IMG/VR virus record: IMGVR_UViG_3300010430_000127 | Span: 1 to 43,930 of that record | Strand: one strand, 5' to 3' | DNA length: 43,930 nt | Origin: a virus | Part shown: positions 9,282-33,702 of the stretch, one piece after another | How positions within the stretch are numbered: position 1 is the first letter of the stretch | How the letters are laid out: every line of letters begins with the position of its first letter | Notes under the pieces: model-generated | The model's input: the letters and a program-made list of their open reading frames with translations, nothing else | Databases searched by the model: none | What the model was told of the DNA's origin: nothing | Position numbers and translations under genes: made by a program

Positions 9282-9367
9282 TGGTATTTCCTCTCTCTGT
9301 TAGGGTGTTGTAACAGTAACACATGAGATGTTATGCTTGCAACACCTATAACACAACGGAGTAAAGC
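9282..9367. promoter_or_regulatory. Divergent promoter/operator region with repeated GTGTT/AACAC elements
   Basis: This 86-base gap separates the leftward exonuclease operon from the rightward HTH-helicase operon. GGTGTTG (9304-9310) is an inverted match to CAACACC (9340-9346), and GTGTT (9305-9309) to AACAC (9318-9322). Further AACAC copies begin at 9341 and 9350. Several TTG...TA-type -35/-10 candidates exist in both directions (for example a leftward TTGTGT, 17 bases, TAACAT) but none matches consensus well. The repeats look like binding sites for a dimeric regulator; the HTH protein encoded at 9368 is an obvious candidate. Confidence 0.5.
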
Positions 9368-9688: not shown

Positions 9689-11097
9689 CCAAACTGATAA
9701 CACTTCGGGATTATCAGAACGAGGCTGTTGAGCGCGCAGCAAATGCGCTGCGTGTTCATCAGTCTGTTTTGATTCAAAGTCCAACAGGGACAGGCAAAAC
9801 AGTGATGGCTTCTGCCATTACTCAACGAGCAAACAGAAAGGGCAACAAGGTTTGGTTCACAGTTCATCGTGACTTCCTCTTGATGCAAACTGCCGGAACC
9901 TATAAAAACTTCGCCATTGACTATGGCTTTGTTGCGGCAACCAAAGTTGCTAACGAGCAATCACCGAATCAAATCTGTGCAATTGATACACTCAAGCGCA
10001 GAATCGAAAAACTCCCCCTGCCTGACCTGGTGCTAATTGATGAGGCTCATCATTGCACTGCTGCCGGATGGTCGATGGTCATCAAATATTGGCTTGAGCG
10101 TGGAGTAAAGATAGTCGGTCTGTCAGCAACACCACGCAGACTTGATGGAAAGGGTCTTGGTGGTCACTTTGACTTCATGGTGACATCACCACCTGTCTCA
10201 TGGTTCATCGAACAAGGCTACCTGTCTGACTACACGATGTTTGCGCCAACCATGATCGACACCTCGCATATCCATTCTAGGGGTGGTGACTTTATCAAAT
10301 CTGAGCTTGCTGAAGAAATCGACAAGCCAAGTATTACCGGAGACATCATTCAGCACTGGCGGGAACACGCTGAAGGACTCACATCTGTAGGCTTCGCTGT
10401 ATCAATTGAGCATTCACAGCATCTCACAGCAGCCTTTAATGCCGCTGGCATACCAGCAGAGCATCTGGATGGCAAAACGCCTTCAGCACAGCGTACAGCA
10501 GCCGCAATGAGGCTTGCGTCAGGCGAAACAAAGATACTATGGAACGTAGACCTGTTCGGTGAGGGGTACGACCTCTCAGCGCAAGCAGGAACGGATGTAA
10601 CCATTGACTGTGTGGTTGGTGCTAGACCAACTAAAAGTGAGGCTCTGTGCCTCCAGCAGTGGGGCAGGGCTTTGCGACCGAAGAAGGATGGCTCCAATGC
10701 CATTATTCTTGATCACGCAAGCAACTCAGTTCAACAGGAACACGGTCTGCCTTGCGAGGATAGGAAGTGGTCGCTGAAAGGTGTTGCTCAGGGTAAAAAG
10801 AAAAAGGAAAAGACCGTTCCAATCAGGCAGTGTAAGCAGTGCTTCCATGTTCACAAGCCAAGCCCTCAATGCCCGAACTGCAAATACATCTATCCGGCTC
10901 AGGTTCGTGAAGTAGAAGAGCGCGCAGGTAATCTTGAGCAGGTAAACAAGGAAGAGGTGATTGAGCGCAGGAACAAGCGAAGGGAAGTTGGCATGGCAAA
11001 GACTTTACCTGAACTTCAAGAGATAGCTAGGAACCGAGGCTATAAGCCTGGGTGGGCTGAACACGTTTTTAACTCAAGGAACAGGGCAACGGTATGA
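9685..11097 (+). CDS. Superfamily 2 DEAD/DEAH-box helicase
   Basis: A 470-residue helicase with Walker A SPTGTGKT (32-39), DEAH (119-122), SATPRR (147-152), a LWNVDLFGEGYDL segment and motif VI QQWGRALRPK. These are the UvrB/RecG-like or type-III-restriction-like phage helicases (T4 UvsW-like in role). The C-terminal ~110 residues carry a CxxC...CxxC zinc ribbon (CKQC, CPNC). It would remodel forks or recombination intermediates together with RecT and the exonuclease. Overlaps the genes on both sides. Confidence 0.9.
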   Translation: MTKLITLRDYQNEAVERAANALRVHQSVLIQSPTGTGKTVMASAITQRANRKGNKVWFTVHRDFLLMQTAGTYKNFAIDYGFVAATKVANEQSPNQICAIDTLKRRIEKLPLPDLVLIDEAHHCTAAGWSMVIKYWLERGVKIVGLSATPRRLDGKGLGGHFDFMVTSPPVSWFIEQGYLSDYTMFAPTMIDTSHIHSRGGDFIKSELAEEIDKPSITGDIIQHWREHAEGLTSVGFAVSIEHSQHLTAAFNAAGIPAEHLDGKTPSAQRTAAAMRLASGETKILWNVDLFGEGYDLSAQAGTDVTIDCVVGARPTKSEALCLQQWGRALRPKKDGSNAIILDHASNSVQQEHGLPCEDRKWSLKGVAQGKKKKEKTVPIRQCKQCFHVHKPSPQCPNCKYIYPAQVREVEERAGNLEQVNKEEVIERRNKRREVGMAKTLPELQEIARNRGYKPGWAEHVFNSRNRATV

Positions 11098-13888: not shown

Positions 13889-14027
13889 TCTCTCTCTCCT
13901 GTTGTAAGAGCGACAACCTTATCACACCGGTAATTCGTGTCAATACAAATATGGTTCAATAATCTTGTTGACAGAATCTCACACAGGATGTTAGTTTTGT
14001 TATCCCCTACATTTGAGAGAGAGAAGA
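13889..14027. promoter_or_regulatory. Divergent control region between methylase operon and HTH-primase operon
   Basis: Perfect -35 hexamers are present in both directions: TTGACA at 13968-13973 (rightward) and its complement at 13938-13943 (leftward). The matching -10 boxes are poor (rightward TAGTTT at 18 bases; leftward GATAAG only 14 bases away), so activity may depend on an activator. GTTGT...ACAAC (13901-13905 and 13912-13916) is an inverted repeat close to the leftward start. The rightward leader ends in a GAGAGAGAG ribosome-binding site. Confidence 0.5.
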
Positions 14028-14239: not shown

Positions 14240-16678
14240 ATGCCTTCTTACGACCCCGATAAAATCAAGGCACAAAACCCTATTGAAGCGGTTGTGGGTG
14301 ATCGTGTTGAACTCAAAAAGAACGGCAACGAATATTCTGCTTGCTGCCCGTTTCATAATGAGAACACACCTTCATTTACCGTCAGCCCCGACAAAGGTTT
14401 TTATCATTGCTTTGGGTGTGGAGCGCATGGGGATTCCATAGATTTTGTTACCGAGTATGAGGGTGTGACCTTTCAAGAAGCGTGTGCAATTCTTGTTGGT
14501 GATCAAGACCGCAGAGATACCTCACCGGAGAAACGAAACCACAGACAAGTAGTTGACTACTACGATGGCTACAAGCTTGTACCGGTACCTGAAGGCAAGG
14601 AGATTATTCCGGGCAAAGAATTCACAGCATGGAACCCAAAGCGCAAGCTTGATGGTGTCGTTCCGACTGTGACCTACAAGCCATCAATGGTCTTTCCTTA
14701 CCATGATGAACACGGTGATTTTCTTGGCTACGTTATTCGCCATGATTTTGTAAAAGACAACAAGGTTCGCAAACTCACACCGATGATCGGTTGGGTTAAG
14801 TCTCCTGACGGAACCGAGGGCTGGTCTCACTACCCGTTTCCGAAACCGAGACCGCTATACAATGTCGAAAGCCTGGTCAACGACAAAGAAGGCAAAGCTG
14901 TTCTGTGGGTCGAAGGCGAGAAGTGTGCTGATGCTGCTTCACTGCTAACGGCTTACATTCCGGTTGCAACCTGTGGCGGCACTAACGGTATCAAATACAC
15001 AGACTTCAGCCCGCTCAAGGGCAAGCGTATTTTGATCTGGTGTGACAACGATGAGGTTGGTCAGAAGGCAGCTGAAGAGAAGCTTGTTCCGCTCCTATGG
15101 TCAGTCGGTGTTGAAAGTATCAAAGCCATTGAAGTCGATTCTGAGAAGCCTAAAGGTTGGGATATTGCCGATGCTGTTGATAGCGGCATGTCCGGTACCG
15201 ATATTATCAAGTGGGCTAAACCCAGGGTTGTCACTCTGGAGCAGCCGGAGTACGAGCCTGAAGTCTCTGAGCAGATGAAAGAAGTAATGGCAAGCACCCA
15301 TGATGACAAAGAAGTTGTCTCGGTCAATGCCGTTAATTCTATCCAGACAAAGGATGCTCGCACCTTCCTGCCGACTGATGATGGCAACGATGTGCTACAT
15401 GCTCTGTGTGATCAGTATGTGTATGTGCGCAGCGAGGATTGCGTGTACCGCATTGATGAGCCTGACCTCGGCATCAAGCGTGGTGCATTCATGTTCTCGT
15501 ATCAGCAGCGTCCTAACTTGGATAAGGAGCAGCCCCCGGTATCGAAGCTGTGGGCTAATGACCCTCGCAGAATTGCCGTTGACAACCGCTTATTCACCCC
15601 GGTTCCATACTGGATTGTCGATAACACACTCAACACCTACAGACCCCCGGTTCACCCTGAGCCTTCAGGTGAGGCTGAGACATTTATCGAATTTATTGAT
15701 CATCTGATACCGGATGGCACTGAATCAGCCTGGTTCCTCAAATGGCTGGCGTATAAGGCTCAGAATCTCCACGAGAGGGGTGTTGCTGTTGTTATGGTGG
15801 CTCCGGCTACCCAGGGTACCGGTAGAGGCACCTTGCAGCGTGTGATGGCTCAGATGTTTGGTCAAAAGTATGTGCAGAATGTGTCGATGACCGATGTCTC
15901 CGGTGGCACATCACAGGCTCAGTACAACGATTGGATGTCGGAGTCGCTGTTTGCCTTCGTTGCTGAGACCTCAGAACAAGGTCACGGCTTCAAAGACCGT
16001 TCGACAGCATACGAGACCATGAAAGAAATCGTTGACCCGGCTGAATCGTGGATGAGGGTGAAGCGGAAAGGCATTCAGAATGGCTACGAGCGCATATACT
16101 GCTCTGTGCTGTTCGCTACGAATCACCTTGATGCACTTGCTATCCCACCTGAAGATCGGCGCATGTGCGTGATCAGGAACGGTGAGAAGATGCCTGATGA
16201 CCTCTGGAAGCGTATCGACAGGTGGCGCAAGAACCCGGCAAACATCGCTGCCGCTCTTCACATGCTTGAGTCGCTGAACGTGGAAGATTTCAATTTTGGC
16301 TACGCACCGGAAACCTCAGCCAAGATCGAAATGATTGAAGCCAACAAATCAGACCTCGACAAAGCCCTGGACATGGCTGTGATCGACATGAAGGGAAGCT
16401 TCTTCACCAACTACCAGATGTACACCTACATCGAAAGCGCAGCCCGTGACTACGATTGGTCTCTGAGCGACAAGTGGAGAACGGTTGTAAAGAATCTGGT
16501 CACTCGCAAGTTCAAGAAAGCGTGTAAGGATGACCCGAGGTGGCAGCTGTCAGCCAACGGGAAGCCGGTCATGGTCTATTCGCTGCATGGTGAGCAGTTT
16601 AACAAGTCGTTAATCGACAAGAAGTTGATCAGGGAAGAGGTGATGAAGAACGGTCATCCATACGAGCTTCAATTCTGA
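14240..16678 (+). CDS. CHC2 zinc-finger primase-helicase (TOPRIM + DUF5906-like ATPase)
   Basis: An 812-residue replication protein. Residues 36-60 form the CHC2 zinc finger (C36, H39, C57, C60) of DnaG-type primases. A TOPRIM core follows at about 225-290 (VLWVEGEKCADAAS, then ILIWCDNDEVGQKAA). From about 430 comes a helicase of the D5/DUF5906 type: TQGTGRGT takes the place of Walker A with Arg where Lys is usual, and SLFAFVAETSEQG fits the Walker B region. It would prime and unwind at the phage fork. It is encoded just before the origin-like region 17041-17903. Confidence 0.9.
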   Translation: MPSYDPDKIKAQNPIEAVVGDRVELKKNGNEYSACCPFHNENTPSFTVSPDKGFYHCFGCGAHGDSIDFVTEYEGVTFQEACAILVGDQDRRDTSPEKRNHRQVVDYYDGYKLVPVPEGKEIIPGKEFTAWNPKRKLDGVVPTVTYKPSMVFPYHDEHGDFLGYVIRHDFVKDNKVRKLTPMIGWVKSPDGTEGWSHYPFPKPRPLYNVESLVNDKEGKAVLWVEGEKCADAASLLTAYIPVATCGGTNGIKYTDFSPLKGKRILIWCDNDEVGQKAAEEKLVPLLWSVGVESIKAIEVDSEKPKGWDIADAVDSGMSGTDIIKWAKPRVVTLEQPEYEPEVSEQMKEVMASTHDDKEVVSVNAVNSIQTKDARTFLPTDDGNDVLHALCDQYVYVRSEDCVYRIDEPDLGIKRGAFMFSYQQRPNLDKEQPPVSKLWANDPRRIAVDNRLFTPVPYWIVDNTLNTYRPPVHPEPSGEAETFIEFIDHLIPDGTESAWFLKWLAYKAQNLHERGVAVVMVAPATQGTGRGTLQRVMAQMFGQKYVQNVSMTDVSGGTSQAQYNDWMSESLFAFVAETSEQGHGFKDRSTAYETMKEIVDPAESWMRVKRKGIQNGYERIYCSVLFATNHLDALAIPPEDRRMCVIRNGEKMPDDLWKRIDRWRKNPANIAAALHMLESLNVEDFNFGYAPETSAKIEMIEANKSDLDKALDMAVIDMKGSFFTNYQMYTYIESAARDYDWSLSDKWRTVVKNLVTRKFKKACKDDPRWQLSANGKPVMVYSLHGEQFNKSLIDKKLIREEVMKNGHPYELQF

Positions 16679-16687
16679 TTGAAACCG

Positions 16688-16803
16688 GGGGAGAGTTGTG
16701 TCACAATAGGCTTGCCAGAAAAACAACAACAATGGCAAGCCCAACCAGTGATACTCTCTCTCCCTATCGCCCCGCTGGTTGGGCTTTTTTGTGGAGAGAG
16801 AAA
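16688..16803 (+). promoter_or_regulatory. Attenuator-like leader: antiterminator, terminator and Shine-Dalgarno-pairing loop
   Basis: Three interlocked pairings are visible in the leader of the next gene. GGCTTGCCA (16709-16717) pairs perfectly with TGGCAAGCC (16733-16741). The terminator AAGCCCAACCAG (16737-16748) pairs with CTGGTTGGGCTT (16775-16786), followed by T's; the two stems share 16737-16741, so they exclude each other. The terminator loop holds TCTCTCTCC (16755-16763), complementary to GGAGAGAGA (16793-16801), the Shine-Dalgarno of the gene at 16804; this would be an H-type pseudoknot. GGGAGAG at 16689-16695 can compete for the same loop. TTGTGTCACAA (16696-16706) is palindromic. 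Confidence 0.7.
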
Positions 16804-17040
16804 ATGGAATTCAAAAAGAAAGACAATTATTACTTCGCGTCAGAGTGTGGCTACCGGATAGCCATCTTCCACCTGAAGAGCAAGTCGGTTCTGGTTGCCA
16901 CATCACCGAGACCGGCAAGCCATGTGGTACACCAAGCTGATTACACTCAGGGCTACGAGGGAAGGGTTTTCAACGAGTGTGCGCTTCAGTGTCAGCTGCA
17001 CAAGACCCCCCCTCGGGAAGATACCCCCCCTCTTTTTTAA
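16804..17040 (+). CDS. 78-residue protein of unknown function downstream of attenuator
   Basis: The ATG at 16804 directly follows GGAGAGAGAAA. The frame stays open upstream through the terminator hairpin, to an ATG at 16732, but no ribosome-binding site precedes that start. The protein reads MEFKKKDNYYFASECGYRIAIF at its start (over two helices/strands) and ends in a Pro-rich low-complexity tail made of two copies of a CCCCCCCTC-type DNA element, so the last ~12 residues may be unstructured. Function unknown. Its unusual leader implies tight control. Confidence 0.6.
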   Translation: MEFKKKDNYYFASECGYRIAIFHLKSKSVLVATSPRPASHVVHQADYTQGYEGRVFNECALQCQLHKTPPREDTPPLF

Positions 17041-17108
17041 GAGGCTCCAGAAAAAAAGGTGCCTTCGTTTTCGCGGGGGAAATCCCCTACAGAAACCACC
17101 TCAAATTC

Positions 17109-17133
17109 ACCGGCTTTTTAGCCGGTTTTTTTT
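17109..17133 (+). terminator. Rho-independent terminator after primase operon
   Basis: ACCGGCT (17109-17115) pairs with AGCCGGT (17120-17126) around TTTT, followed by a 7-8 T run. It would stop transcription of the primase operon before the origin-like region. Confidence 0.85.
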
Positions 17134-17286
17134 GCGAAATTGCTTTGTGATCGACTGAGAAATCAGCTGGAAATTGGTGCCGATTCGATTCACTTTTTTT
17201 TGGAAATTGCAGTTAGAAATGCTGCCGGTTTTGCCTGGGATTTTCTGATATTTTTTCTGGTGAGTCGATTTTCAAAACTTCGGTCA

Positions 17287-17295
17287 TTTTCCACA
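17287..17295 (+). other. DnaA-box match
   Basis: TTTTCCACA fits the relaxed DnaA-box consensus TTWTNCACA. One site alone would be weak evidence; its position 56 bases before iterons makes it more interesting. Confidence 0.4.
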
Positions 17296-17350
17296 GACTG
17301 TTTTTTGCGCTTATTTTTCTAAGTTGTTATTTTATAAGAGAATTTTGAAA

Positions 17351-17486
17351 CCTTATATAAATCAATGACTTACAAAACCCTTTATAAAACAGTGACTTAC
17401 AAAAACCCTTTATAAAACAATGACTTGCAAAATACCCTTATAAATCAACACTTTATAAAACCCTTTATAAAACAATGACTTACAAA
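17351..17486 (+). repeat. Iteron array, core TTTATAAA-n-CAATGACTTACAAA
   Basis: Five direct repeats of 26-29 bases start at about 17351, 17378, 17406, 17435 and 17461. Four contain CA(A/G)TGACTT(A/G)CAAA behind a CC(C)TT(T)ATA element; the fourth (17435-17450) is truncated. A further copy is at 17775-17799. Iterons of this spacing (2.5-3 helical turns) are typical binding sites for replication initiators. Confidence 0.75.
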
Positions 17487-17545
17487 CTTAGAACCATTCT
17501 AAAGTGCTGAAACCCAATGATAGCAATGGTTTCAGCGTGTCGCGG

Positions 17546-17665
17546 CTGTCCGGTTGCCAGGCTGCCAGGTTGCCAGGTTGCCAGGTTGCCAGGTTGCCAG
17601 GTTGCCAGGTTGCCAGGTTGCCAGGTTGCCAGGTTGCCAGGTTGCCAGGTTGTCCGGTTGTCCGG
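17546..17665 (+). repeat. Octanucleotide tandem repeat, 15 units of TTGCCAGG type
   Basis: Fifteen perfect-length 8-base units: CTGTCCGG, TTGCCAGG, CTGCCAGG, ten TTGCCAGG, then two TTGTCCGG. The edge units differ from the uniform core by TGTCCGG, on both sides. Frames through the array are open on both strands because of the repeat, but none has a ribosome-binding site. Confidence 0.95.
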
Positions 17666-17903
17666 CTGTCGTGGTTGATACACTCTTATATAGTGTTGCT
17701 TTGAACCTTGCGCGGATTTTGCGCAGATTGTGCGCGTAACGGGTTATCTCGGGCGAGTTATCTCAATTATGATTCTTTATAAATCAATGACTTATAAAAT
17801 AGCGGTCAATATATATATTGAATCAGCCGCGCAATCCGCTATATTTAACTCACTGGCAGCGCATTTATTGCCAGCGACAAACCAATAAAAGGAACCGCAG
17901 AAA

Positions 17904-18044
17904 ATGACCCTCACACAATACAACGCAATAACCGCAACGCTCGCGCTTACATTAGAAGCTGTAACAACATCACAAGGCGCAGCCGGTCTTATTTTCTCGC
18001 TGTGGCTTGTCACACTGCCACTAGCCGCCGGGATTCTTAAGTAA
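17904..18044 (+). CDS. 46-residue membrane protein
   Basis: Preceded by AAAGGAACCGCAG. The second half (residues 26-44, AAGLIFSLWLVTLPLAAGI) is a membrane helix; the first 25 residues are polar and Thr-rich. The TAA overlaps the ATG of the next gene. It opens the orphan cluster 17904-21363. Too short for family assignment. Confidence 0.55.
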   Translation: MTLTQYNAITATLALTLEAVTTSQGAAGLIFSLWLVTLPLAAGILK

Positions 18045-18178
18045 TGACATACCTGCAAACAAGAAAACGCAAAGCCCGTAACAAGGCGCTAGCTAATACC
18101 GCGCTTCTATTCTCTGTAGTAACCCCGCTCTGCCTTTTAATTGGTTATAGCGGCTACCTTGAATATATAAACTTCTAA
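18044..18178 (+). CDS. 44-residue membrane protein with basic N-terminus
   Basis: Start codon overlaps the previous stop (TAATG). A strongly basic N-terminus (RKRKARNK) is followed by a hydrophobic helix at residues 18-37 and a short tail, so it should sit in the inner membrane with the N-terminus inside. Together with the previous gene it looks like a pair of small partner membrane proteins. Function unknown. Confidence 0.55.
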   Translation: MTYLQTRKRKARNKALANTALLFSVVTPLCLLIGYSGYLEYINF

Positions 18179-18194
18179 CCATAGGAAAAAGACA

Positions 18195-19091
18195 ATGAAA
18201 ACAGTTTTCAATAATGACCAATTGCCACATATATTCGCGCAACAAAACCAGAACCACGGTCGCAATAGCGGCGGATCGTTCTATTTTAACGGGAATATCA
18301 TCTATAGCTATGGGCAGCACTTTCCTATCGCTAGAATTTTGCCGGATGACGTGGCGCTAATCACGACACAGAGCTATAGCGTAACAACTGCCGCGCACAT
18401 AAGCCGGACTTATGCCGCACTAAGCCATTACAAATCGTTCTCTGTCAATAATGTATTAGCAGACACCAAACCAGAACACAGGGACAACCTAAAAGGCATT
18501 ATTGCCAGCTATCAGGACGCACTATTAAGCGCCGGACGGGCGCGAACCTATAAACAGATTCACATTGACCGCGCTGACAGGCTCTACAGTCAAGCCGTAG
18601 CATATAGCAAGGCATTCAAGCTAGGCGCAAACATTAAGCGACAAGATATAACAGAGCTTTTAGAAGCCGCCAAAAAACAAGCCAAAAAAGACAAGGCGAA
18701 ACGAGAGCGGCTGGCGAAACAGCGAGAGCGGCTGGCGAAACAGAATGCGGCAAAATACGCCGCGCAGCTTGAACAATGGAAGGCGGGACAGCGCGACTCA
18801 ATCGAACGCCTACAGCATAACGCGCCTGTATGGATGCGACTATCTGATGATAAAAAGACCGTCCAAACCACTAAAGGCGCTTCGTTCCCTGCTAAAGAGT
18901 GCTCGGCGGTTTGGCGTATTGTGCAGCTATGCCGCAAACGCGCAGCGGGCTGGAAACCGGAACCAGGTCAACAAGTAAAACTCGGTCATTTCCGTATTAA
19001 TTCAATTTCCGCAAACGGGCAAGTTATAGCCGGATGTCACACCGTAGATTATCCGGCAATTAAAGAGCTTGCCGGAATTTTGGGTCTTTAG
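18195..19091 (+). CDS. 298-residue phage/plasmid protein of unknown function with YSYG-HFPIA motif
   Basis: Clear AGGAAAAAG site. The first ~75 residues contain IFAQQNQNHGRN, then FYFNGNIIYSYGQHFPIARI and TTQSYSVTTAAHISRTY, a motif set that recurs in many phage and plasmid proteins of unknown function. The middle (about 150-200) is a highly charged helix with two identical seven-residue units RERLAKQ, from a 21-base direct duplication (18702-18743). The end has VWRIVQLCRKRAAGWKPEPGQ, LGHFRINSI and VIAGCHTVDY segments. It may be an accessory protein used in host takeover or defence evasion; nothing catalytic is visible. Confidence 0.75.
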   Translation: MKTVFNNDQLPHIFAQQNQNHGRNSGGSFYFNGNIIYSYGQHFPIARILPDDVALITTQSYSVTTAAHISRTYAALSHYKSFSVNNVLADTKPEHRDNLKGIIASYQDALLSAGRARTYKQIHIDRADRLYSQAVAYSKAFKLGANIKRQDITELLEAAKKQAKKDKAKRERLAKQRERLAKQNAAKYAAQLEQWKAGQRDSIERLQHNAPVWMRLSDDKKTVQTTKGASFPAKECSAVWRIVQLCRKRAAGWKPEPGQQVKLGHFRINSISANGQVIAGCHTVDYPAIKELAGILGL

Positions 19092-19102
19092 GAGCGTTTA
19101 AG

Positions 19103-19402
19103 ATGTCAGGATTAACCATCAAAACTAACAACCATATGCGCGATCTTGTCTGTTATGAAGACTTGCCAGAACGCATCAAGCCGGACTTTGACTATCTAAA
19201 CCAGGAAGAAACCTTAACCCCGAGGTTTGTTAAGTATCGCGGGTTATATATAGATTGTTACGACATGATGCGCACTGATGGCAGCGCGCTATCAAATTGG
19301 GATGGATACTGTGGTGACTCTTATTTCAGCGGTACGCTTGTTAAATTCATTTACGATGATTACGGCTATGAAGCTGTCATTGTCGGGACTTACTACAGCT
19401 AA
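19103..19402 (+). CDS. 99-residue protein of unknown function (DLP motif)
   Basis: Shine-Dalgarno GGAGCG. Contains YEDLPERIKPDF near residue 18 and then an aromatic, acidic C-terminal half (YIDCYDMMRTDG, YGYEAVIVGTYYS). The YEDLPxxI element recurs in two neighbouring proteins (19419 and 20353). No family recognised. Confidence 0.65.
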   Translation: MSGLTIKTNNHMRDLVCYEDLPERIKPDFDYLNQEETLTPRFVKYRGLYIDCYDMMRTDGSALSNWDGYCGDSYFSGTLVKFIYDDYGYEAVIVGTYYS

Positions 19403-19418
19403 AAAAGGGGCTTAACCA

Positions 19419-19823
19419 ATGCATTATATAAACTTAAAAACAATTCACCACGCGACAGAAACAATCGACCAATTCGACAGCTATATGGAAGCGTTCGCAG
19501 CTGTTAAAGAATACCGACTCGCAGACAGTAGCGGGTGTTACTACATAAGCCAACGTGCGACAGAATGTTGGTATCAGTCAAACCAGCAGCCCGCGAAAGT
19601 ATATCGGATTTATGATAACGGATATAAGTCGCCTATGCGTTACACGGTGGTCTTAACTGACAAGAATAACGGGCATCATGCTTGCATAATGGCAGACAGT
19701 GAACCGCGCACAATAACACAAGAGGCGCAATGCAAGCCTGGCGCGCATTTAGGACGGCGCATATCGTGGGATGACTTGCCAGCACAGATTCAACAGGCAG
19801 TAGCGGAACAGGGGGTAAAATAA
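19419..19823 (+). CDS. 134-residue protein of unknown function (DLP motif at C-terminus)
   Basis: Shine-Dalgarno AGGGG. Looks like a small alpha/beta domain (YMEAFAAVKEYRLADSSGCYYISQRAT, given here as YMEAFAAVKEY and SGCYYISQRAT) and ends in ISWDDLPAQIQQAV. Such a terminal WDDLPxxI element is seen in other small phage and plasmid proteins. Its TAA overlaps the ATG of the next gene. Function unknown. Confidence 0.65.
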   Translation: MHYINLKTIHHATETIDQFDSYMEAFAAVKEYRLADSSGCYYISQRATECWYQSNQQPAKVYRIYDNGYKSPMRYTVVLTDKNNGHHACIMADSEPRTITQEAQCKPGAHLGRRISWDDLPAQIQQAVAEQGVK

Positions 19824-20356
19824 TGTCAAAATTACATACAGTAACAACCGAAACATGGAATATAGACGAACATCCGAAGCCGGAATTATGCCTGCAATGG
19901 ATGCGCGAAAACTATCACGACTTATACGGCTGGAACTATGAAAACGCCGACAGCGTCAAAGCCTATGCGTCTGCGATGGATGCAATACTTAAAGATTATT
20001 CTGTGAGCCTGTGCAGTCATTCGTATATAGAATTCGTTAGCCGCTTAGACATAGAAGAATTACACGGCATAATGCTCTGGAAGTATCTACAGAATAATGG
20101 CTATTTCAATCTATTAAAGAGTGAATGCAATCTGACCGGATATTGTGCGGACGATGTTTTACTGCAAAGCCTGCGCAAGTTTCACAAAAACCCAGACGCA
20201 AACACAACAATGAAAGATATTCTGGATTCTGCCGCTTCTGATATGGTTAGCTATTGGCTTGAAGACTGGCAGCACGCCTACTCAGACGAGGCGCTGACAG
20301 ATTCAGCAGAGGCGAACCAATATTACTTTACCGAGAGCGGGAGCGTTTACCAATGA
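19823..20356 (+). CDS. 177-residue acidic protein of unknown function
   Basis: Start overlaps the previous stop and stop overlaps the next start (ATGA). N-terminal ELCLQWMRENYHDLYGW, central GYCADDVLL with FHKNPDAN, and C-terminal EANQYYFTESGSVY. The protein is strongly acidic and mostly helical in appearance. Acidic proteins of this kind can be DNA mimics, but no ArdA- or Ocr-like pattern was recognised. Function unknown. Confidence 0.65.
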   Translation: MSKLHTVTTETWNIDEHPKPELCLQWMRENYHDLYGWNYENADSVKAYASAMDAILKDYSVSLCSHSYIEFVSRLDIEELHGIMLWKYLQNNGYFNLLKSECNLTGYCADDVLLQSLRKFHKNPDANTTMKDILDSAASDMVSYWLEDWQHAYSDEALTDSAEANQYYFTESGSVYQ

Positions 20357-20757
20357 GCAATAAAACCACAACACTGAAAGCCATAGAGCGCGAATATAAC
20401 GCGATAGCAGATAGCGTGTTCAAGCTTCCAAAATACGCGCCAATGAGCTATGACGAATTGCCGCAAGCTATCATCCGGCTTTGTGAGTCCATCAACAATT
20501 ACGCAGACGAACATGACAGCGAGATGCTATGGTATATCGGTGAATGCACCGAATCCGCTCTATCCGACTTTATTGTAGGCGCATACTGGCATTACACGGA
20601 ATGGCACGGAGGGCAGAATTCAGATTCATACGCGGCGCTGTGCGCGCTGGGTGCTATCTTCCAGCCTGGCATGACTTGCCCACCGGATGACGACAGCGAG
20701 CCGGAATACCATACGTTCATAACGCTGGAAGAGATGGCGCAGGGAATTAAATCATGA
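20353..20757 (+). CDS. 134-residue acidic protein of unknown function (DELP motif)
   Basis: Coupled by ATGA on both sides. Contains MSYDELPQAIIRLCESI at about residues 27-43, related to the DLP element of two neighbours, and ends acidic with CPPDDDSEPEYHTFITLEEMAQ (read as CPPDDDSEPEY and ITLEEMAQ). Acidic throughout. No family recognised. Confidence 0.65.
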   Translation: MSNKTTTLKAIEREYNAIADSVFKLPKYAPMSYDELPQAIIRLCESINNYADEHDSEMLWYIGECTESALSDFIVGAYWHYTEWHGGQNSDSYAALCALGAIFQPGMTCPPDDDSEPEYHTFITLEEMAQGIKS

Positions 20758-20966
20758 GCTATTCAGAACAAGCATTAAGAATAGGCAAGGCATCAAACCA
20801 TTTTGAGTCTTTATATGGTGACAAGAGGGACAATTCTAAATTGACGGAAAAAGAGTTGATCAGTGAGCTATTAAGAATATGCAACCAATATGAAGTCGGG
20901 TTTAATGGTTTTGAATATCTTGAAAAGTCTCTTATCACTAACCGCAATAACGGAACAAGGAATTAA
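20754..20966 (+). CDS. 70-residue protein of unknown function
   Basis: Overlaps the previous gene by ATGA. Helical, with GKASNHFESLYGD and LTEKELISELLRICNQYEVGF. More AT-rich codon use than its neighbours. No family recognised. Confidence 0.6.
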   Translation: MSYSEQALRIGKASNHFESLYGDKRDNSKLTEKELISELLRICNQYEVGFNGFEYLEKSLITNRNNGTRN

Positions 20967-20969
20967 ATA

Positions 20970-21194
20970 ATGTTAATTTATGATTTAATATTGACCGGCG
21001 ATGATGCCACGGAAGACAACGCAATACACTTCGCTATGGATTTTGTGTGGAGTGAGAGTGAATGCAGAGAGGAGCCAATGCCACGGCATAGCCACCATAT
21101 CTATACCACCAACGGAATAGCCATTTATTATGATTATGCCGCCGATTATTACTGGTTCGCCGATGCCACCGGGAGCGTTAAACATGAGCAATAG
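20970..21194 (+). CDS. 74-residue acidic protein of unknown function
   Basis: Starts 3 bases after the previous gene, with GGAATTAAATA in front. Acidic and aromatic (DFVWSESECREEP, IYYDYAADYYWFADATG). It overlaps the next gene by 11 bases. No family recognised. Confidence 0.6.
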   Translation: MLIYDLILTGDDATEDNAIHFAMDFVWSESECREEPMPRHSHHIYTTNGIAIYYDYAADYYWFADATGSVKHEQ

Positions 21195-21363
21195 AAACAA
21201 AGAGCTATTATTTCTGTTAAGACAGTGCAGAAAAAACCCTGCACTATTTGCCAACAACGATCAGGCATTGAAACTCCATAGAATAATTAAAAAAACCAAA
21301 GCCCGATTATATAAAGATGATCGCGGGGTTAACCGCCAGTCAATCATACTGTCAACTGACTGA
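21184..21363 (+). CDS. 59-residue basic protein, last gene of the orphan cluster
   Basis: The ATG at 21184 lies within the end of the previous gene after GGGAGCG, a good ribosome-binding site; a longer in-frame start at 21130 lacks one. Basic and helical (LLRQCRKNPALF, HRIIKKTKARLYK). A terminator follows 50 bases later. It could bind nucleic acid. Function unknown. Confidence 0.6.
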   Translation: MSNRNKELLFLLRQCRKNPALFANNDQALKLHRIIKKTKARLYKDDRGVNRQSIILSTD

Positions 21364-21390
21364 AACCGATGCCACCTGGTGCAATAGTCA

Positions 21391-21511
21391 GCACCTCACA
21401 GCACCTCACACAAGCCCCGAAAGGGGCTATTTTTTGTGCATGGTGTTTGTGCCTGTCTCTTGTCTTGAACCACACACAATCCCATCAGAAGCCGCTCACA
21501 AGCCGCTCACA
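21391..21511 (+). repeat. Two short tandem duplications around the terminator
   Basis: GCACCTCACA is repeated perfectly at 21391-21400 and 21401-21410. AGCCGCTCACA is repeated perfectly at 21490-21500 and 21501-21511. The units share a CTCACA end. No function is evident. Confidence 0.8.
21413..21435 (+). terminator. Rho-independent terminator of the orphan cluster
   Basis: AGCCCC (21413-21418) and GGGGCT (21423-21428) around a GAAA tetraloop, followed by ATTTTTT. Ends the 17904-21363 transcription unit. Confidence 0.85.
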
Positions 21512-22455
21512 TATGCCTGAGATCAATACAGCCCGAAAGTCTACGCCGGGCGAGAATTAAGCCTGAATCGACTATAAACAGTGCTATAAACAGCCGTTAT
21601 TGTTGCTTATAGCTTGCTTATAGTTGGTTACTTACTGATTATAATTATGCGACCGCATAGCGGTTTATATAAGCGTTGTAATCACATGATGATTATTCGA
21701 TAAGCGCCTGTTTTATATGCCTTATTTGCTCAACATTACCCTTTATAAGCATATAAGCAATATATTTTATATTATCCTCACTCAATACCTATATATTGCT
21801 GAATATTATACATATATATCTAAAATAGCCTGTTTTTTTAGGGTATAGGAACGGGGCTATTTTGCTTATATGCAATGCAGCATGACGCAATAAGCGAAAC
21901 AAGATAAGAGCAGGGAGAGTGCCCGCGCTCATGCAGATATGCGAGCCGGGCTTGTATGCCGCTCCTAAGCGATTTTTGCGGGCATTGTGTAATCCTGGCT
22001 TGTCTCTGCCTGGAATAGCTGCGCGGGCTTTGCGCGGGCTGTGATCACAGACCCGAACCAGGCGCAACCGCAACCGAGCCGGGGTAAAGCTTGAGCCGGT
22101 GCCGGTGTTTGGCGGTATCCCTGGCAATGCTTGAGCGCCTAACATGGAATGAGACCAATTCTCATTAAACCGAGACCGCGAACCAGGCAAGGCGCACAAT
22201 TCAGAATCGCTATTCACTGCCGGTGCCGGTCTGTATCGGTGGCGAATGCGGGTAGCAGCTGAAACCATTGCGGCACAAGGCTTTCAGAGACCCCCCCACC
22301 CCGAATCCGAAAAACGATTGCGCCGGGCAAAAAAGGGTGAGACCTCCCCTCTCCTAATTGAAACGTGGCTACGGTGTTTGGCTTTGGACACATATATATG
22401 ATTGCTAAAAAATCGCGTGGAGCTCGGCGGCGTTTGTTTTGTTGAAAAAATACTG
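21436..22455. other. Non-coding region: AT-rich repeat zone followed by GC-rich zone
   Basis: No convincing gene. 21570-21870 is AT-rich with many ATAAGC/CTATAA elements: CTATAAACAG at 21572 and 21584, GCTTATAG at 21605 and 21616, and further copies near 21669, 21699, 21744 and 21752; CCCTTTATAA at ~21740 also occurs in the iterons at 17378-17486. AAAATAGCC (~21825) pairs with GGCTATTTT (~21857). 21890-22330 is GC-rich with small repeats such as GCGCGGGCT twice (22021-22040) and the 12-base palindrome CTGTGATCACAG (22039-22050). A 159-codon leftward open frame here looks spurious. Confidence 0.55.
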
Positions 22456-22464
22456 AATCGTGAG

Positions 22465-22702
22465 AAAGGTGTTGCACTTACGACAGAAGGGTGGTAGATT
22501 ACGTTCATGGGGTGTTACCCCACCGAGTATGCAGTTCGATTCTGCTAGGTAGCGACATTTGGTAATAAACGGGGTTCGACTCCCGATTAACATCTGATTG
22601 GACTGTAAAGCCTTGAAGATGTTATGTGTCACAGCGACTGGGAATGCTGGCTTGACAGACCGGAAAGACGGTCACTTTATTTTATCGCCGCGAATTGGCG
22701 GC
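22465..22702 (+). other. Structured leader with two tRNA T-arm-like motifs and stacked hairpins
   Basis: GCAG-TTCGATT-CTGC (22531-22545) and GGG-TTCGACT-CCC (22572-22584) look like T-arms. Before the first, TGGG-GTGTTAC-CCCA (22508-22522) resembles an anticodon arm with a 7-base loop centred on GTT. No complete cloverleaf could be built in normal order. Downstream, TAACATCT (22588-22595) pairs with AGATGTTA (22617-22624), then TGTCA (22627) with TGACA (22653), GACCG with CGGTC (22658-22673) and GCCGC with GCGGC (22687-22702). Confidence 0.45.
22652..22682 (+). promoter_or_regulatory. Putative promoter with internal dyad before gene 22718
   Basis: TTGACA (22652-22657) is a perfect -35 box; TTTATT (22676-22681) 18 bases later matches 4 of 6 of the -10 consensus. 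The spacer contains the dyad GACCG-GAAAGA-CGGTC (22658-22673), which could be an operator covering the spacer. Confidence 0.5.
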
Positions 22703-22717
22703 TAATTGGAGAGAGAG

Positions 22718-23068
22718 ATGAAAAAATTAGGAAGAGGTGAGTTTACCGTTGAGTTAGCCTGGTATGTTTTGGGTAAATACGGAATAGCGATTGATGTTGG
22801 TGTTTTGCGATTGATGCCTTATTTGATGTACTTGGTGGTGAATGGTGAGAGCGTATCTCGCAGAAGGGTAAAGGAGGATGAAGAGAGCATTATTATCGAA
22901 ATGGTTGCTAATGGCTGGATAAAACTTCCATACGATGATTTGAGTGTTACTCGTGAGTTTTACGACATGGCAAATGATATTCTTTGGTATTCGTACATTG
23001 CTCGTGAAAATCCTCCATACATCAGTGAGGATGACTTTGTTCCTGCTGTTGATGTGTTTAAGTTATGA
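22718..23068 (+). CDS. 116-residue protein of unknown function
   Basis: The ATG at 22718 follows GGAGAGAGAG directly; a TTG 12 bases upstream is less likely. Helical N-terminus (FTVELAWYVLGKYGIAID) and a SRRRVKEDEESIIIEMVANGWI stretch (seen as SRRRVKEDEES and IIIEMVANGWI) that could be part of a winged helix. First gene of the operon running to ssb. Overlaps the next gene by ATGA. Not recognised. Confidence 0.65.
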   Translation: MKKLGRGEFTVELAWYVLGKYGIAIDVGVLRLMPYLMYLVVNGESVSRRRVKEDEESIIIEMVANGWIKLPYDDLSVTREFYDMANDILWYSYIARENPPYISEDDFVPAVDVFKL

Positions 23069-24295: not shown

Positions 24296-24869
24296 CACTA
24301 AACGACCGAGCGCGGGTGAGATTTTAGCAATGCGGATACATCTCAAGCACTTCGACCCTTTCGCACCACAGGGGTCGCAATACTTCACGGACTGGTGTAG
24401 TTGGGAAGGAGAAGGAAAGTGCCTAAAGTGTCAGGCATGGGATATTTTTCAAAGCACGTTAGCAGCCCTCGATGCTGCCGAGGCTAAATCAGAGCGGCTT
24501 TTACAAGAGGCTCAAATTCAAGCGCAGGAAATGCGCACGATGAAGTCTATCGTCAACGAATGCTATCAGGCTGCATCCGATGCTACAGGCGAGGCTGGCA
24601 ACTGGAACGGCAGCAAGCCTGTTGTTGAATGTATCAGCAAGCTCCGCGAACAGGTGGCGCGGTTGGAGGAGCAGGACGTGCCTATGTTGCACACACACTT
24701 TGCGATTGATCTTTATCGACAGTGGTTTGACACGTTGCAGGATACAAACCCCGCGTTTCTTGAGCCTAATGATTATCGACTAGCAATAGCACTGTACAAA
24801 GCTACCCATCACCACGTTCCTCAATCAATCATTGATGGTGCGCAGATCACGGAGCAGGACAATGACTAA
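24288..24869 (+). CDS. 193-residue protein with central coiled coil
   Basis: Overlaps the previous gene by 8 bases. N-terminal part has WCSWEGEGKCLKC (possible metal site), followed by a helical coiled-coil stretch (about 55-90) and a C-terminal helical domain with HTHFAIDLYRQWFDTLQ. Possibly a fusion of two small domains. Function unknown. Confidence 0.65.
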   Translation: MTDTKRPSAGEILAMRIHLKHFDPFAPQGSQYFTDWCSWEGEGKCLKCQAWDIFQSTLAALDAAEAKSERLLQEAQIQAQEMRTMKSIVNECYQAASDATGEAGNWNGSKPVVECISKLREQVARLEEQDVPMLHTHFAIDLYRQWFDTLQDTNPAFLEPNDYRLAIALYKATHHHVPQSIIDGAQITEQDND

Positions 24870-25521
24870 CCAAGAGGAAGGGCTAGTTCATCTAGTCGCA
24901 GGAGTAGGGAGCCGTGTTAATGGCTCACCGGCAGTATCGGTGTGCGGAAGCCTCGGTAAGGCAACAACGAAGCTTGCCGATGTAACTTGCGCGGCTTGCC
25001 ATGAGAGTGATCTGTACAAGCAGATGGTTCGTGATGAAGCTCGGGAATATAAAGCTTTCAACGGTCTCAATTGCGTGGAGCTTGTTGTCGATGAGTCGGA
25101 AGGTCTGACTGTGGAGAGCATCAAAGCTTTGCAAGACACTCTGAGCGAACCGGTTGATCACGGAAGCCCGATACATGGTCTTGAGTCGATGATAGTTTCT
25201 ACTAAGCTGATTTTGCAAATGGCAGAAAAGATCGAAAAGCTTAATGCTGAAGTGAAGAAGTGGGATAGAGTGACCGACATCCAGGGAAGGTCTATTACCC
25301 GGCTTCAGCAGAACAATGCTCACCTTACCGTAAGGAACCGTGATCTTGAGAATTCTCTCAAGCACATTTTTAACTACATAGACGATTGGGATTGTGAGAG
25401 CCAGTTAAGCAGAATCCAAAGCATTGCTGAAGATGGGCTTAAACCAGTTTGTCGTGGTGAAATAGAGGAGAATGAAATTGTCATTTCTGAAGGAATTTAC
25501 AAGGAAGCGGAATATGAGTGA
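24862..25521 (+). CDS. 219-residue protein with zinc-knuckle-like start and coiled coil
   Basis: The ATG at 24862 lies inside the end of the previous gene; a longer in-frame start at 24832 is less likely because it would overlap more and adds a basic stretch. Residues ~10-50 have VCGSLGK and VTCAACHESDLYK, typical of small phage Cys-pair proteins. Residues ~120-180 form a coiled coil (KIEKLNAEVKKW, RDLENSLKHIF). Function unknown. Confidence 0.6.
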   Translation: MTNQEEGLVHLVAGVGSRVNGSPAVSVCGSLGKATTKLADVTCAACHESDLYKQMVRDEAREYKAFNGLNCVELVVDESEGLTVESIKALQDTLSEPVDHGSPIHGLESMIVSTKLILQMAEKIEKLNAEVKKWDRVTDIQGRSITRLQQNNAHLTVRNRDLENSLKHIFNYIDDWDCESQLSRIQSIAEDGLKPVCRGEIEENEIVISEGIYKEAEYE

Positions 25522-25843
25522 GCCGAAAACAACTAAGCCGATAAAGGTAACGGTTACAGAGTTTATTGAACTGCTAAACGAAGAGGTTGCTCTTCTTCGT
25601 GACAGCAAAGAGCCAGTAAACAGTGATCATCGGTACCGGCTCGCAGACATGCTTATTGCGGCTCGTGATGTGATCAGAAAGAACAGCAGCGACAACAACA
25701 TGAGCGATGCTATTCTTGAGCAGCTGACCAGCGAAGATGTTGATGCCTTCATCGGTGATGGCATTTCAGAGACTGTCGTTCTCATTCTTGATCGAAAGAA
25801 AACGATGGATTTTTTAGACGGATACAAAAGGAATCGTGACTAA
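25514..25843 (+). CDS. 109-residue acidic helical protein of unknown function
   Basis: ATG 25514 after AAGGAAGCGG is chosen over a longer start at 25472. Helical ([33 protein letters not shown]). Overlaps the previous gene by 8 bases and ssb by 1 base. Position next to ssb suggests a replication accessory role, not shown by sequence. Confidence 0.65.
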
Positions 25844-26262
25844 TGGCTCGTGGAGTAAACAAAGTAATTTTGATTGGCAACCTGGGTTCAGACCCGGAAA
25901 TTAAACACACGCAATCAAGCGATGCGATTTGCAACCTGGCTGTGGCTACCAGCGAAAGCTGGAAAGATAAAAGCTCCGGTGAGAAGGTTGAGAAAACCGA
26001 GTGGCATCGTGTTGTTGCTTTTGGTCGGCTCGCTGAAGTAATGGGTGAGTACCTGAAGAAAGGCAGCAAGGTTTACATCGAAGGTTCATTGCAGACTCGT
26101 AAATGGCAAGACAAAGATGGCAATGATCGTTACACAACCGAGATTAAAGCTCGTGACATGCAAATGCTTGATAGTCGCGGCAACTCAACTCAGTTGGCAG
26201 CTCCATCTCAGTCGGCACCACAACAGTCATCGCAACAGCTGGATGATGAAATTCCGTTTTAG
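25843..26262 (+). CDS. ssb: Single-stranded DNA-binding protein
   Basis: A 139-residue SSB. The OB fold (residues 1-108) begins [18 protein letters not shown] and contains [22 protein letters not shown] and the [15 protein letters not shown] core of bacterial SSB. The tail is Gln/Ser-rich and ends in the acidic tip DDEIPF that recruits partners. It protects ssDNA for RecT and the primase-helicase. TAATG overlap with the gene before. A structured leader and terminator follow. Confidence 0.95.
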
Positions 26263-26274
26263 CAATAAGGCAAG

Positions 26275-26360
26275 CATCGCATCTTCGGGTGCGTAGCTGA
26301 ATTGCTCCTAGCCCGGTGGGAGTTTGCCGATTAGACCGGGCAATTTTTTTAGGAGAAAAC
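26275..26360 (+). promoter_or_regulatory. Terminator leader with Shine-Dalgarno-complementary arm
   Basis: First a UUCG-type hairpin: CGCATC (26278-26283), TTCG, GGTGCG (26288-26293). Then GCCCGGT (26311-26317) pairs with ACCGGGC (26335-26341), followed by AATTTTTTT, a rho-independent terminator. CTCCTA (26305-26310), directly before the stem, is complementary to TAGGAG (26350-26355), the Shine-Dalgarno of the gene at 26361; CTCC can instead pair with GGAG in the loop (26319-26322). This resembles the leader at 16688-16803. Confidence 0.65.
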
Positions 26361-26561
26361 ATGAGCTACTGTCCAGAATGTGAGGGAAATCACGCTGTAG
26401 AAGTGAAGTGTGATGAGATAATTAACCCTCGCTCCGGTGGCGTTTTCACCATTAAGGATTTTGAGTACACCTACTGTCACGATTGCGGAGTCGAATTTGT
26501 TAATCACGAACAAAGGAAGGCAAATGACAAGAAGATACGAGTCGCAAAAGAAGGGATATGA
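26361..26561 (+). CDS. 66-residue zinc-ribbon-like protein
   Basis: Two Cys pairs, CPEC at residues 4-7 and CHDC at about 39-42, with the layout of a small zinc ribbon (also seen in YgiT/MqsA-like and rubredoxin-like phage proteins). Basic C-terminus. Strong site TTAGGAGAAAAC directly after a terminator. Overlaps the next gene. Likely nucleic-acid or protein binding. Confidence 0.7.
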   Translation: MSYCPECEGNHAVEVKCDEIINPRSGGVFTIKDFEYTYCHDCGVEFVNHEQRKANDKKIRVAKEGI

Positions 26562-26673
26562 TTTCAGTGAGCATTTCATCGACCATGACAACCCCGTTGA
26601 GAGATGGGCTTACCGTGTCGTTATCTGCGCAATAGCTTTCACTTTGATTATCTTGCCAATAGTGATAGATTAG
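26524..26673 (+). CDS. 49-residue single-TM protein
   Basis: ATG at 26524 after AAAGGAAGG, within the end of the zinc-ribbon gene. Residues 30-47 (VVICAIAFTLIILPIVI) form a C-terminal membrane helix; the N-terminal 29 residues are charged. Tail-anchored topology. It ends 4 bases before terS. Function unknown. Confidence 0.6.
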   Translation: MTRRYESQKKGYDFSEHFIDHDNPVERWAYRVVICAIAFTLIILPIVID

Positions 26674-26677
26674 AAAA

Positions 26678-27121
26678 ATGAGCGAAGAAAATGCAAAGAT
26701 CGTAGCGGAGCTGGAGAAGCTTTCATCTGACTGGAAGCAGGTTCTGCTGACTTCATATTCTGATGGCAATCACGATGCAGCTGCCATCGGTCTGATCATG
26801 GAGCTTCGTGCTGAGGCTCTTCACCCTGAAGCTGAAGATGGTGAGACCCCTCTCTTCGGTGACTTCACTCCTGATGATTTCAAAGAGTGGTACGATGGCT
26901 CAGAAGAGTTCCGCAGGGTTATTGACTCTGGTCGGGTTCTTGCGGAGAAGTGGTGGGTCGAGCAGGGTAAGGACGCTGCTCAAGGCAAGAACAACATGAC
27001 ATCAGCCGCTTGGCTTTTTGGCATGAAGAACCAATTCAACTGGAAGGACAAGAAAGAGCTTACCGGCGAAGGTGGTGGCGCAATTCGTGTCCAAGTTTTC
27101 TCTGACGAAGAGGGTGTGTGA
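26678..27121 (+). CDS. terS: Small terminase subunit candidate
   Basis: 147 residues. The order before terL, the HTH-like N-terminus, WLEEDEEF-like GSEEFRRVIDSGRVLAEKWW (read as GSEEFRRVID and GRVLAEKWWVEQG) and AAWLFGMKNQFNWKDKKE match small terminases of phages with P22/Sf6-like terS (the WxFxMKNRFxW element is typical). It recognises the packaging site and regulates TerL. Helical throughout. Followed by an unusual 170-base structured gap before terL. Confidence 0.85.
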   Translation: MSEENAKIVAELEKLSSDWKQVLLTSYSDGNHDAAAIGLIMELRAEALHPEAEDGETPLFGDFTPDDFKEWYDGSEEFRRVIDSGRVLAEKWWVEQGKDAAQGKNNMTSAAWLFGMKNQFNWKDKKELTGEGGGAIRVQVFSDEEGV

Positions 27122-27277
27122 TGGGTGATTCTGGCTCATGCGGAAAAACAACTAATCATTAACGATTCCTATGGTGAGGAAAATTCCAGAAGGATTGGTC
27201 ATCCTTTGCGAGCGGTAGCCTCGCCGCTCTGGTAGAAAGAGGCACGAAAACGCCCCGCTTCATGCGGGGCTTTTTTT
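27121..27277 (+). other. terS-terL intergenic element with hairpins and terminator
   Basis: Three hairpins in a row: AAGGAT/ATCCTT (27190-27206), GAGCGG/CCGCTC (27210-27229; alternatively GCGAG/CTCGC, 27208-27224), and the terminator GCCCCGC/GCGGGGC (27252-27270) followed by seven T's. A possible 13-codon frame (27121-27162) starts in TGATG with the terS stop. The gap may hold a packaging site (cos/pac), a small RNA, or an attenuator that sets the TerS:TerL ratio. Confidence 0.6.
27252..27277 (+). terminator. Rho-independent terminator between terS and terL
   Basis: GCCCCGC (27252-27258), loop TTCAT, GCGGGGC (27264-27270), then TTTTTTT. Strong by eye. It lies only 17 bases before the terL start, where read-through must be needed unless a promoter lies inside the hairpin region. 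Confidence 0.85.
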
Positions 27278-27293
27278 ATGGTAGATTTCGCTC

Positions 27294-28580: not shown

Positions 28581-28629
28581 TTGTTTTATGGTTATGCAAT
28601 CAGCAACCCATCAATAATGGACACATGGC

Positions 28630-33641: not shown

Positions 33642-33688
33642 GGGGTAGGTGGTGTCGGTTTCGGCTGGCATCATCTATCCCTTTTTTT
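33642..33688 (+). terminator. Rho-independent terminator with G-U rich stem
   Basis: GGGGTAGGTGGTG (33642-33654) can pair along 13 positions with CATCATCTATCCC (33669-33681), including three G-U pairs, around a 14-base loop, followed by TTTTTTT. Because of the G-U pairs the hairpin forms only in the rightward transcript. It probably raises capsid expression over downstream connector genes by partial termination. Confidence 0.7.
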
Positions 33689-33702
33689 GAAAGGAATTTC
33701 CA

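Follow-up and report, generated by a model that had tools for sequence, protein, structure and literature searches.

What decides whether a phage gene is read when an intrinsic terminator stands directly before it and the loop of that terminator is complementary to its Shine-Dalgarno sequence? We analysed such a locus in a window comprising the whole of a 43,930-base stretch of DNA from an IMG/VR virus record. The window has myovirus-type gene content (baseplate, sheath, terminase, portal, and capsid genes) and also holds RecT-like, exonuclease VIII-like, primase, and helicase genes. The element lies between the stop codon of the primase gene and the start, at 16804, of a small downstream gene:

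14240–16678, + strand: open reading frame for a phage DNA primase/helicase-like protein of 812 aa, with its stop codon at 16676–16678
16804–17040, + strand: open reading frame of the 78-aa gene

The 812-aa protein matches PHROGs DNA primase families (best E 1.6e-36), and the 78-aa protein has no match in Pfam or PHROGs. The leader between the two genes is crossed by open frames: the primase frame stays open for 60 codons past its stop codon (16679–16861), and a second open frame runs on from TTG16696 to take in the 78-aa gene. Scored for codon usage, the in-frame upstream extension reaches −0.11 per codon, less than the value at the 5th percentile for real genes (0.008), and the leader is therefore probably non-coding. 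On the same codon-usage test, we rejected TTG16696 and ATG16732 as starts of the 78-aa gene, ATG16732 additionally being without a Shine-Dalgarno sequence, and rejected translation past the primase stop along the frame that stays open.

The leader contains several segments that can pair with one another:

16687–16695, + strand: segment A, GGGGGAGAG, which on read-through RNA pairs with the CU tract at 16756–16764 (nine pairs, one of them G-U) in the minimum-free-energy fold
16698–16704, + strand: 5′ arm of a middle 7-bp helix, with its partner at 16748–16754 (GUGUCAC with GUGAUAC)
16709–16717, + strand: 5′ arm, GGCTTGCCA, of a 9-bp helix, the antiterminator of the preliminary description, with its partner TGGCAAGCC at 16733–16741
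16737–16786, + strand: intrinsic terminator, with a 12-bp stem, a 26-nt loop, and a T-run at 16785–16790; the best-scoring intrinsic terminator in the window
16754–16763, + strand: segment B, CTCTCTCTCC, part of the terminator loop; its complements are segment A and Shine-Dalgarno sequences of the GA type
16793–16801, + strand: segment C, GGAGAGAGA, the Shine-Dalgarno sequence of the 78-aa gene
16687–16764, + strand: long competing hairpin of 9 + 7 + 9 bp, formed when transcription continues from the primase gene and excluding the terminator

The preliminary description had proposed an attenuator built from the 9-bp stem, the terminator stem, and a loop complementary along nine bases to the Shine-Dalgarno sequence, and each of these pairings is exact. 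In particular, GGCTTGCCA pairs with TGGCAAGCC at nine of nine positions; AAGCCCAACCAG (16737–16748) pairs with CTGGTTGGGCTT (16775–16786) at 12 of 12 positions, followed by the T-run, with a stem of up to 14 bp if weak inner pairs are counted; and TCTCTCTCC (16755–16763) pairs with GGAGAGAGA at nine of nine positions. The five bases said to be common to the first two stems are indeed shared (16737–16741). Dinucleotide shuffles of 16679–16792 reached neither the 9-nt complement to the Shine-Dalgarno sequence nor the perfect 12-bp inverted repeat (0/3000 for each), and the same segment folds at −48.4 kcal/mol, against a shuffle mean of −29.5 kcal/mol (sd 3.5; 0/1000 shuffles as good). In a window-wide scan of both strands, its folding z-score ranks fourth among 1754 segments, which makes the region a clear outlier, though other outliers exist in the window. 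The most extreme folding z-score (−5.3) belongs to 9706–9805, within the first part of the helicase reading frame.

Two helices that the preliminary description did not contain, the 7-bp helix at 16698–16704/16748–16754 and the full 9-bp helix at 16687–16695/16756–16764, join the 9-bp stem to form a single 25-bp hairpin with two internal loops, in which GGGGGAGAG pairs with the CU tract, GUGUCAC pairs with GUGAUAC, and GGCUUGCCA pairs with UGGCAAGCC. In the folding model, this hairpin is complete, at −41.7 kcal/mol, with transcription at 16766, before the 3′ arm of the terminator (16775–16786). For the full-length RNA, enforcing the terminator gives a best fold of −33.4 kcal/mol, against −50.1 kcal/mol without enforcement, a gap of about 17 kcal/mol. 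These energies are computed over nested pairs, with pseudoknots, proteins, and kinetics left out of the model. The leader thus has what an attenuator has, a terminator hairpin and T-run before a gene and a mutually exclusive alternative structure; one part of the earlier proposal that changes is the competitor, which is the 25-bp hairpin and not a 9-bp stem.

The outcome of the competition in the model follows the length of upstream RNA. The probability of the terminator is 0.96–0.98 when the RNA begins 0–20 nt upstream of it, drops to 0.52 at 40 nt, and is 0.0 from 60 nt onward. Among the other five intrinsic terminators in the window, four form whatever the upstream RNA, and the one at 26311 alone varies. 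We also performed a blocking scan, in which bases up to a given point were barred from pairing, mimicking a bound ribosome or a later start. With all bases free, the terminator probability is 0, and the Shine-Dalgarno sequence is 53% unpaired on average. A block that reaches 16690 or farther lets the CU tract pair with the Shine-Dalgarno sequence, which is then 1% unpaired; with the block at 16690, the terminator remains at 0. With RNA polymerase at 16790, blocking 16687–16695 yields the terminator in 65–84% of the ensemble, and blocking bases up to 16694–16712 yields it in 52–94%. Once the block extends to 16711 or past it, the full RNA also has the terminator, in 80–96% of the ensemble and with its loop 92–98% open. 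In this model, therefore, the terminator can form only when the upstream strand is blocked or absent, and segment A sets the terminator and access to the Shine-Dalgarno sequence in the same direction.

These results bear on three further points of the earlier proposal. A second GGGAGAG at 16689 is present as described, and in the blocking scan it acts not as a mere side competitor for the loop but as the sequence that decides the fold. The ability of the loop to mask the Shine-Dalgarno sequence of the next gene holds, given the exact complement and the 1% opening with upstream bases blocked. By an energy argument from a program that models nested pairs, the proposed H-type pseudoknot is plausible only on RNA without the upstream strand, where its geometry is sterically possible (12-bp and 9-bp stems, with connecting loops of 6, 11, and 6 nt); on the full RNA, masking is predicted to occur instead through a nested hairpin that keeps the 9-bp and 7-bp helices intact. 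Candidates for the signal that would select the fold are the transcription start site and ribosome occupancy.

On completing the primase gene, a ribosome is expected to extend over the RNA to about 16688–16690. In the model, its presence at the stop codon would close the Shine-Dalgarno sequence (from 53% to 1% open) without triggering termination, the terminator remaining at 0 with this block; the stop-codon ribosome alone would therefore affect translation, not termination. This result cuts both ways for a plain cis attenuator of the 78-aa gene alone, the kind of device put forward in the preliminary description, in which RNA would come from upstream promoters, a ribosome or protein would select the fold, and pairing of the loop with the Shine-Dalgarno sequence would be a second lock. 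Mutual exclusion coupled with Shine-Dalgarno masking suits such a device, as does the reach of the stop-codon ribosome; against it, the terminator is never populated on the full RNA, inspection by eye revealed no leader peptide whose stop codon lies near the stems, and Rfam identified no ligand or sensor domain in the element. We consider a plain cis attenuator unlikely.

Absence of the upstream strand could also arise from a start site within the leader. A sigma-70 weight matrix, applied to both strands of the whole window, points to such a site:

16679–16707, + strand: sigma-70-like promoter, TTGAAA-17-CACAAT with the TG of an extended −10, weight-matrix rank 5
16714–16791, + strand: predicted terminated RNA of 77–78 nt, a leader or small RNA, from promoter rank, terminator, and fold
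16719–16733, + strand: AAAAACAACAACAAU, five A-R-N triplets in the 5′ A/C-rich loop, noted by inspection and weak on its own

The matrix, built for this analysis, may not suit the host of the phage, and the −10 element, CACAAT, matches the consensus at four of six positions. A simple consensus scan, which also picks up this site, finds 15 promoter-like sites in the window, against 25.7 in shuffles, i.e. fewer than in shuffles. Four of the top-eight promoters by weight matrix (the one here and those ranked 2, at 13968 on the + strand; 7, at 13943 on the − strand; and 8, at 22652 on the + strand) stand a short distance before four of the five genes with a GAGAGA Shine-Dalgarno sequence. By hand, the chance of finding four of the top eight there is about 1 in a million, taking five leaders of about 130 nt as 0.7% of positions, a leader length chosen post hoc.

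The predicted start from this promoter is G16714, and the predicted RNA folds at −28.7 kcal/mol, with the terminator loop CUCUCUCUCC fully open. The promoter, which lies inside the upstream strand and was overlooked in the preliminary description, makes the element a probable short-RNA gene; we infer use of the promoter, and with it the existence of the RNA, from the computed ranks. Segment A sits in the promoter spacer, and the −10 element and start site are both within the 5′ strand of the long hairpin. Such double use of one strand, as promoter and for pairing, is unusual and counts against the short-RNA reading. A-R-N triplets are a motif of the Hfq distal face (PMC4104026). The A-R-N repeats at 16719–16733 and the U-tail at 16785–16790, both seen by inspection, are features of Hfq-type RNAs that are not specific; they give the element a weak resemblance to an Hfq-dependent small RNA, and Hfq may not apply to the host of this phage.

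Our main reading, to which we assign a probability of about 0.5, is that the element encodes a short terminated leader or small RNA with its own promoter between the primase and 78-aa genes, that the start site controls the 78-aa gene, and that the short RNA masks Shine-Dalgarno sequences in cis and perhaps in trans. Specifically, RNA begun at about 16714 would fold the terminator because the upstream strand is absent, and would mostly stop at about 16790, presenting the loop CUCUCUCUCC. On those transcripts from 16714 that pass the terminator, the loop could pair with the Shine-Dalgarno sequence at 16793–16801 and hold translation down. RNA of the primase operon would carry GGGGGAGAG-UU-GUGUCAC-AAUA-GGCUUGCCA, which would lock the CU tract and the terminator 5′ arm in the long hairpin, so that transcription would continue past the terminator with the Shine-Dalgarno sequence largely free. 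The start site, or cover on the GGGGGAGAG strand (given, for example, by a ribosome on the primase stop codon), would thereby set both transcription and translation of the 78-aa gene, a direction of control that we infer from the modelled folds. If this is true, about 130 bases would serve at once as promoter, small-RNA gene, attenuator, and translation lock, and the same nine bases would be used in three ways, with the choice made by transcription start.

A simpler account would take the element as an ordinary end-of-operon terminator followed by an ordinary promoter of the next gene in a compact genome, the hairpin and CU loop having little regulatory meaning. Terminators directly before start codons do recur in the window (26311–26341, 27252–27270, and 33642–33681), and matches between GA and CU tracts are partly a matter of low complexity, since GA-rich Shine-Dalgarno sequences are common at operon heads of this phage. 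However, a terminator serving the primase message would not be overridden by RNA of that same message, and no shuffle attained the 9-nt loop match, the 12-bp stem, or the fold. We regard this account as doubtful.

Two of the recurring terminators have features of their own. At 26304–26355, the terminator at 26311–26341 stands directly before the start codon at 26361, its T-run runs into AGGAG, and immediately before the stem stands a CTCCT able to pair with the AGGAG Shine-Dalgarno sequence, extending the hairpin over it; this is possibly a second, nested form of the same terminator/Shine-Dalgarno idea. At 33642–33703, a strong terminator hairpin and T-run stand directly before the Shine-Dalgarno sequence of a 64-aa gene at 33703.

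The loop of the predicted RNA is complementary over 8–10 nt to the Shine-Dalgarno sequences of five phage genes, one of which is the 78-aa gene itself (9 nt). The other four, which the preliminary description did not note, are:

22708–22717, + strand: possible trans target GGAGAGAGAG, Shine-Dalgarno sequence of the gene at 22727; 10 nt, best predicted interaction, −16.7 kcal/mol
13890–13899, − strand: possible trans target, Shine-Dalgarno sequence of the gene at 13888–13478; 10 nt, −15.6 kcal/mol
14015–14024, + strand: possible trans target, Shine-Dalgarno sequence of the gene at 14028; 9 nt, −13.4 kcal/mol
9290–9298, − strand: weaker possible trans target, GA-rich Shine-Dalgarno sequence of the exonuclease VIII-like gene at 9281–8451; 8 nt, −9.7 kcal/mol

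The next-best genes have a 6-nt complement to the loop. With opening costs included, predicted binding ranks the genes at 22727, 13888, 14028, and 16804 first to fourth among 56 starts, so that three genes fit the loop better than its own gene does (−11.2 kcal/mol), and the gene at 9281 ranks sixth. The four top-ranked genes are the first genes behind the top-eight promoters described above; the one at 14028 encodes a small helix-turn-helix protein and heads the primase operon. Among 12,460 overlapping 26-nt segments, taken away from other starts and with those antisense to gene starts removed, few places match at least four other genes, and the loop is among them.

These matches would allow the RNA of about 78 nt to act in trans, its loop serving as an anti-Shine-Dalgarno sequence that lowers expression of five GAGAGA-type genes, with the primase read-through RNA as antidote. 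The multi-gene fit suits a small RNA acting on several early operons, and it suits equally well a phage habit of GA-rich Shine-Dalgarno sequences together with one local anti-Shine-Dalgarno sequence; because the latter fits equally, we hold action in trans to be a tentative and rather improbable extension of the main reading.

The leaders of the genes at 16804 and 22727 are the best-aligning pair tested, with a score of 56 against a shuffled mean of 29 (0/2000 shuffles), or 42 against 25 (2/2000 shuffles) without the Shine-Dalgarno part. The two leaders share TGTGTCACA, at similar distances upstream, and GGCTTG-CAGA, which may represent a shared promoter or operator. That likeness favours a reading in which the inverted repeats act mainly as DNA, either as an operator (TTGTGTCACAA, 16696–16706, overlapping the −10 element) or as part of a replication origin after the gene, as do origin-like repeat arrays at 17330–17660. 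Against this reading, the window has no excess of near-matches to TTGTGNCACAA (27, with 30 expected); an RNA role agrees with the T-run, with the polarity, and with the match to the Shine-Dalgarno sequence; and an operator leaves the terminator unexplained. A role mainly as DNA is, in our judgement, very improbable.

The repeat arrays lie downstream of the primase and 78-aa genes. They comprise AT-rich repeats of about 27–28 bp, resembling TTTATAAAACAATGACTTACAAAACCC, at 17330–17500, followed at 17544–17660 by some fourteen 8-bp GGTTGCCA repeats, and together they look like a replication origin with iterons.

Searches for relatives covered the leader DNA against a phage collection, the 78-aa protein against phages, viral contigs, and genomes, and exact-pattern scans for the stems; none returned a related leader or, for the 78-aa protein, a relative. 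One match to the A-B-C pattern (L016) was rejected as an unrelated tandem array of hairpins. Searches with the primase, terminase, capsid, and a 298-aa protein returned distant relatives, two fragments with identical proteins, and bacterial matches to a primase-type N-terminal region, none of which spans a related leader. The two fragments, L014 and L095, are viral contigs of sample 3300027828. Because their terminase and capsid proteins are identical to those of the window, and the DNA of L014 is 100% identical over 24807–30999, the same phage occurs in that metagenome; the leader lies outside both contigs.

Rfam gave no match at the gathering threshold over the whole window, none at E up to 5 over 16400–23000, and, at E up to 10 over 16640–16820, only weak, far-below-threshold matches to unrelated families. 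On this ground, we rejected a known riboswitch or ribosomal-protein leader and membership in a curated family of the P4 CI or P1 c4 type. We also rejected a tRNA identity for the element. Elsewhere in the window, a long non-coding region at 22460–22620 contains stretches resembling a tRNA T-arm, GCAGTTCGATTCTGC and CGGGGTTCGACTCCCG; tRNA and Rfam searches of this region gave no match, and it is possibly a tRNA remnant or attachment site.

The short-RNA reading has partial likenesses among known systems. In the Bacillus trp leader (TRAP), one leader controls both termination and access to the trpE Shine-Dalgarno sequence (reportedly Du and Babitzke 1998, cited in PMC4347634). Here too, one RNA rearrangement would affect both transcription and translation, whereas the deciding feature seems to be the presence of the upstream strand, set by the start site, and not a bound protein. 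If the cis part alone is true, the element would be a dual-level attenuator, the principle of which is already familiar. In enterobacterial pyrC, the 5′ end of the RNA picks the hairpin through a shift of a few bases under nucleotide control; the element would likewise select its hairpin by the RNA 5′ end, but with two separate promoters and with a terminator. In Listeria LhrC and in staphylococcal small RNAs with C-rich loops, unpaired C/U-rich loops pair with the purine-rich Shine-Dalgarno sequences of several messages. The element sets a similar C/U-rich loop against purine-rich Shine-Dalgarno sequences; unlike those chromosomal RNAs, it is phage-borne, is present in one copy, and carries its loop in a terminator directly before one of the potential targets.

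The closest comparisons are with phage RNAs. Loops of the P1 c4 RNA pair with its target in the region of the ribosome-binding site (PMC12197685). Like P1/P7 c4 and Salmonella IsrK, the predicted RNA is a short structured phage RNA with a loop complementary to a phage ribosome-binding region, and the predicted yield of short and read-through forms from one promoter is a further likeness to IsrK; unlike c4 and IsrK, its CU/GA repeat fits several genes and not one target, it has no Rfam match, and no antirepressor gene was identified here. In phage P4, CI RNA pairs with seqA upstream and seqC downstream, causing premature termination (PMC4825925). The element shares with P4 CI a short leader RNA complementary to one upstream and one downstream site (A-B-C) and tied to termination, and differs in that an intrinsic terminator carries segment B in its loop, the Shine-Dalgarno sequence itself makes up segment C, the short RNA would be made by initiation and termination where that of P4 arises by processing, and no sequence or Rfam match links the two. 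The predicted RNA has the hallmark of short antisense RNAs of the P4 CI and P1 c4 type, an unpaired segment complementary to sequences before and after it, including a ribosome-binding site. Family membership aside, the element would act in a manner resembling the P4 CI and P1 c4 systems and, if the short-RNA reading is true, would be a phage analogue of P4/P1 antisense control, aimed at a kind of Shine-Dalgarno sequence that several genes have in common and not at one target.
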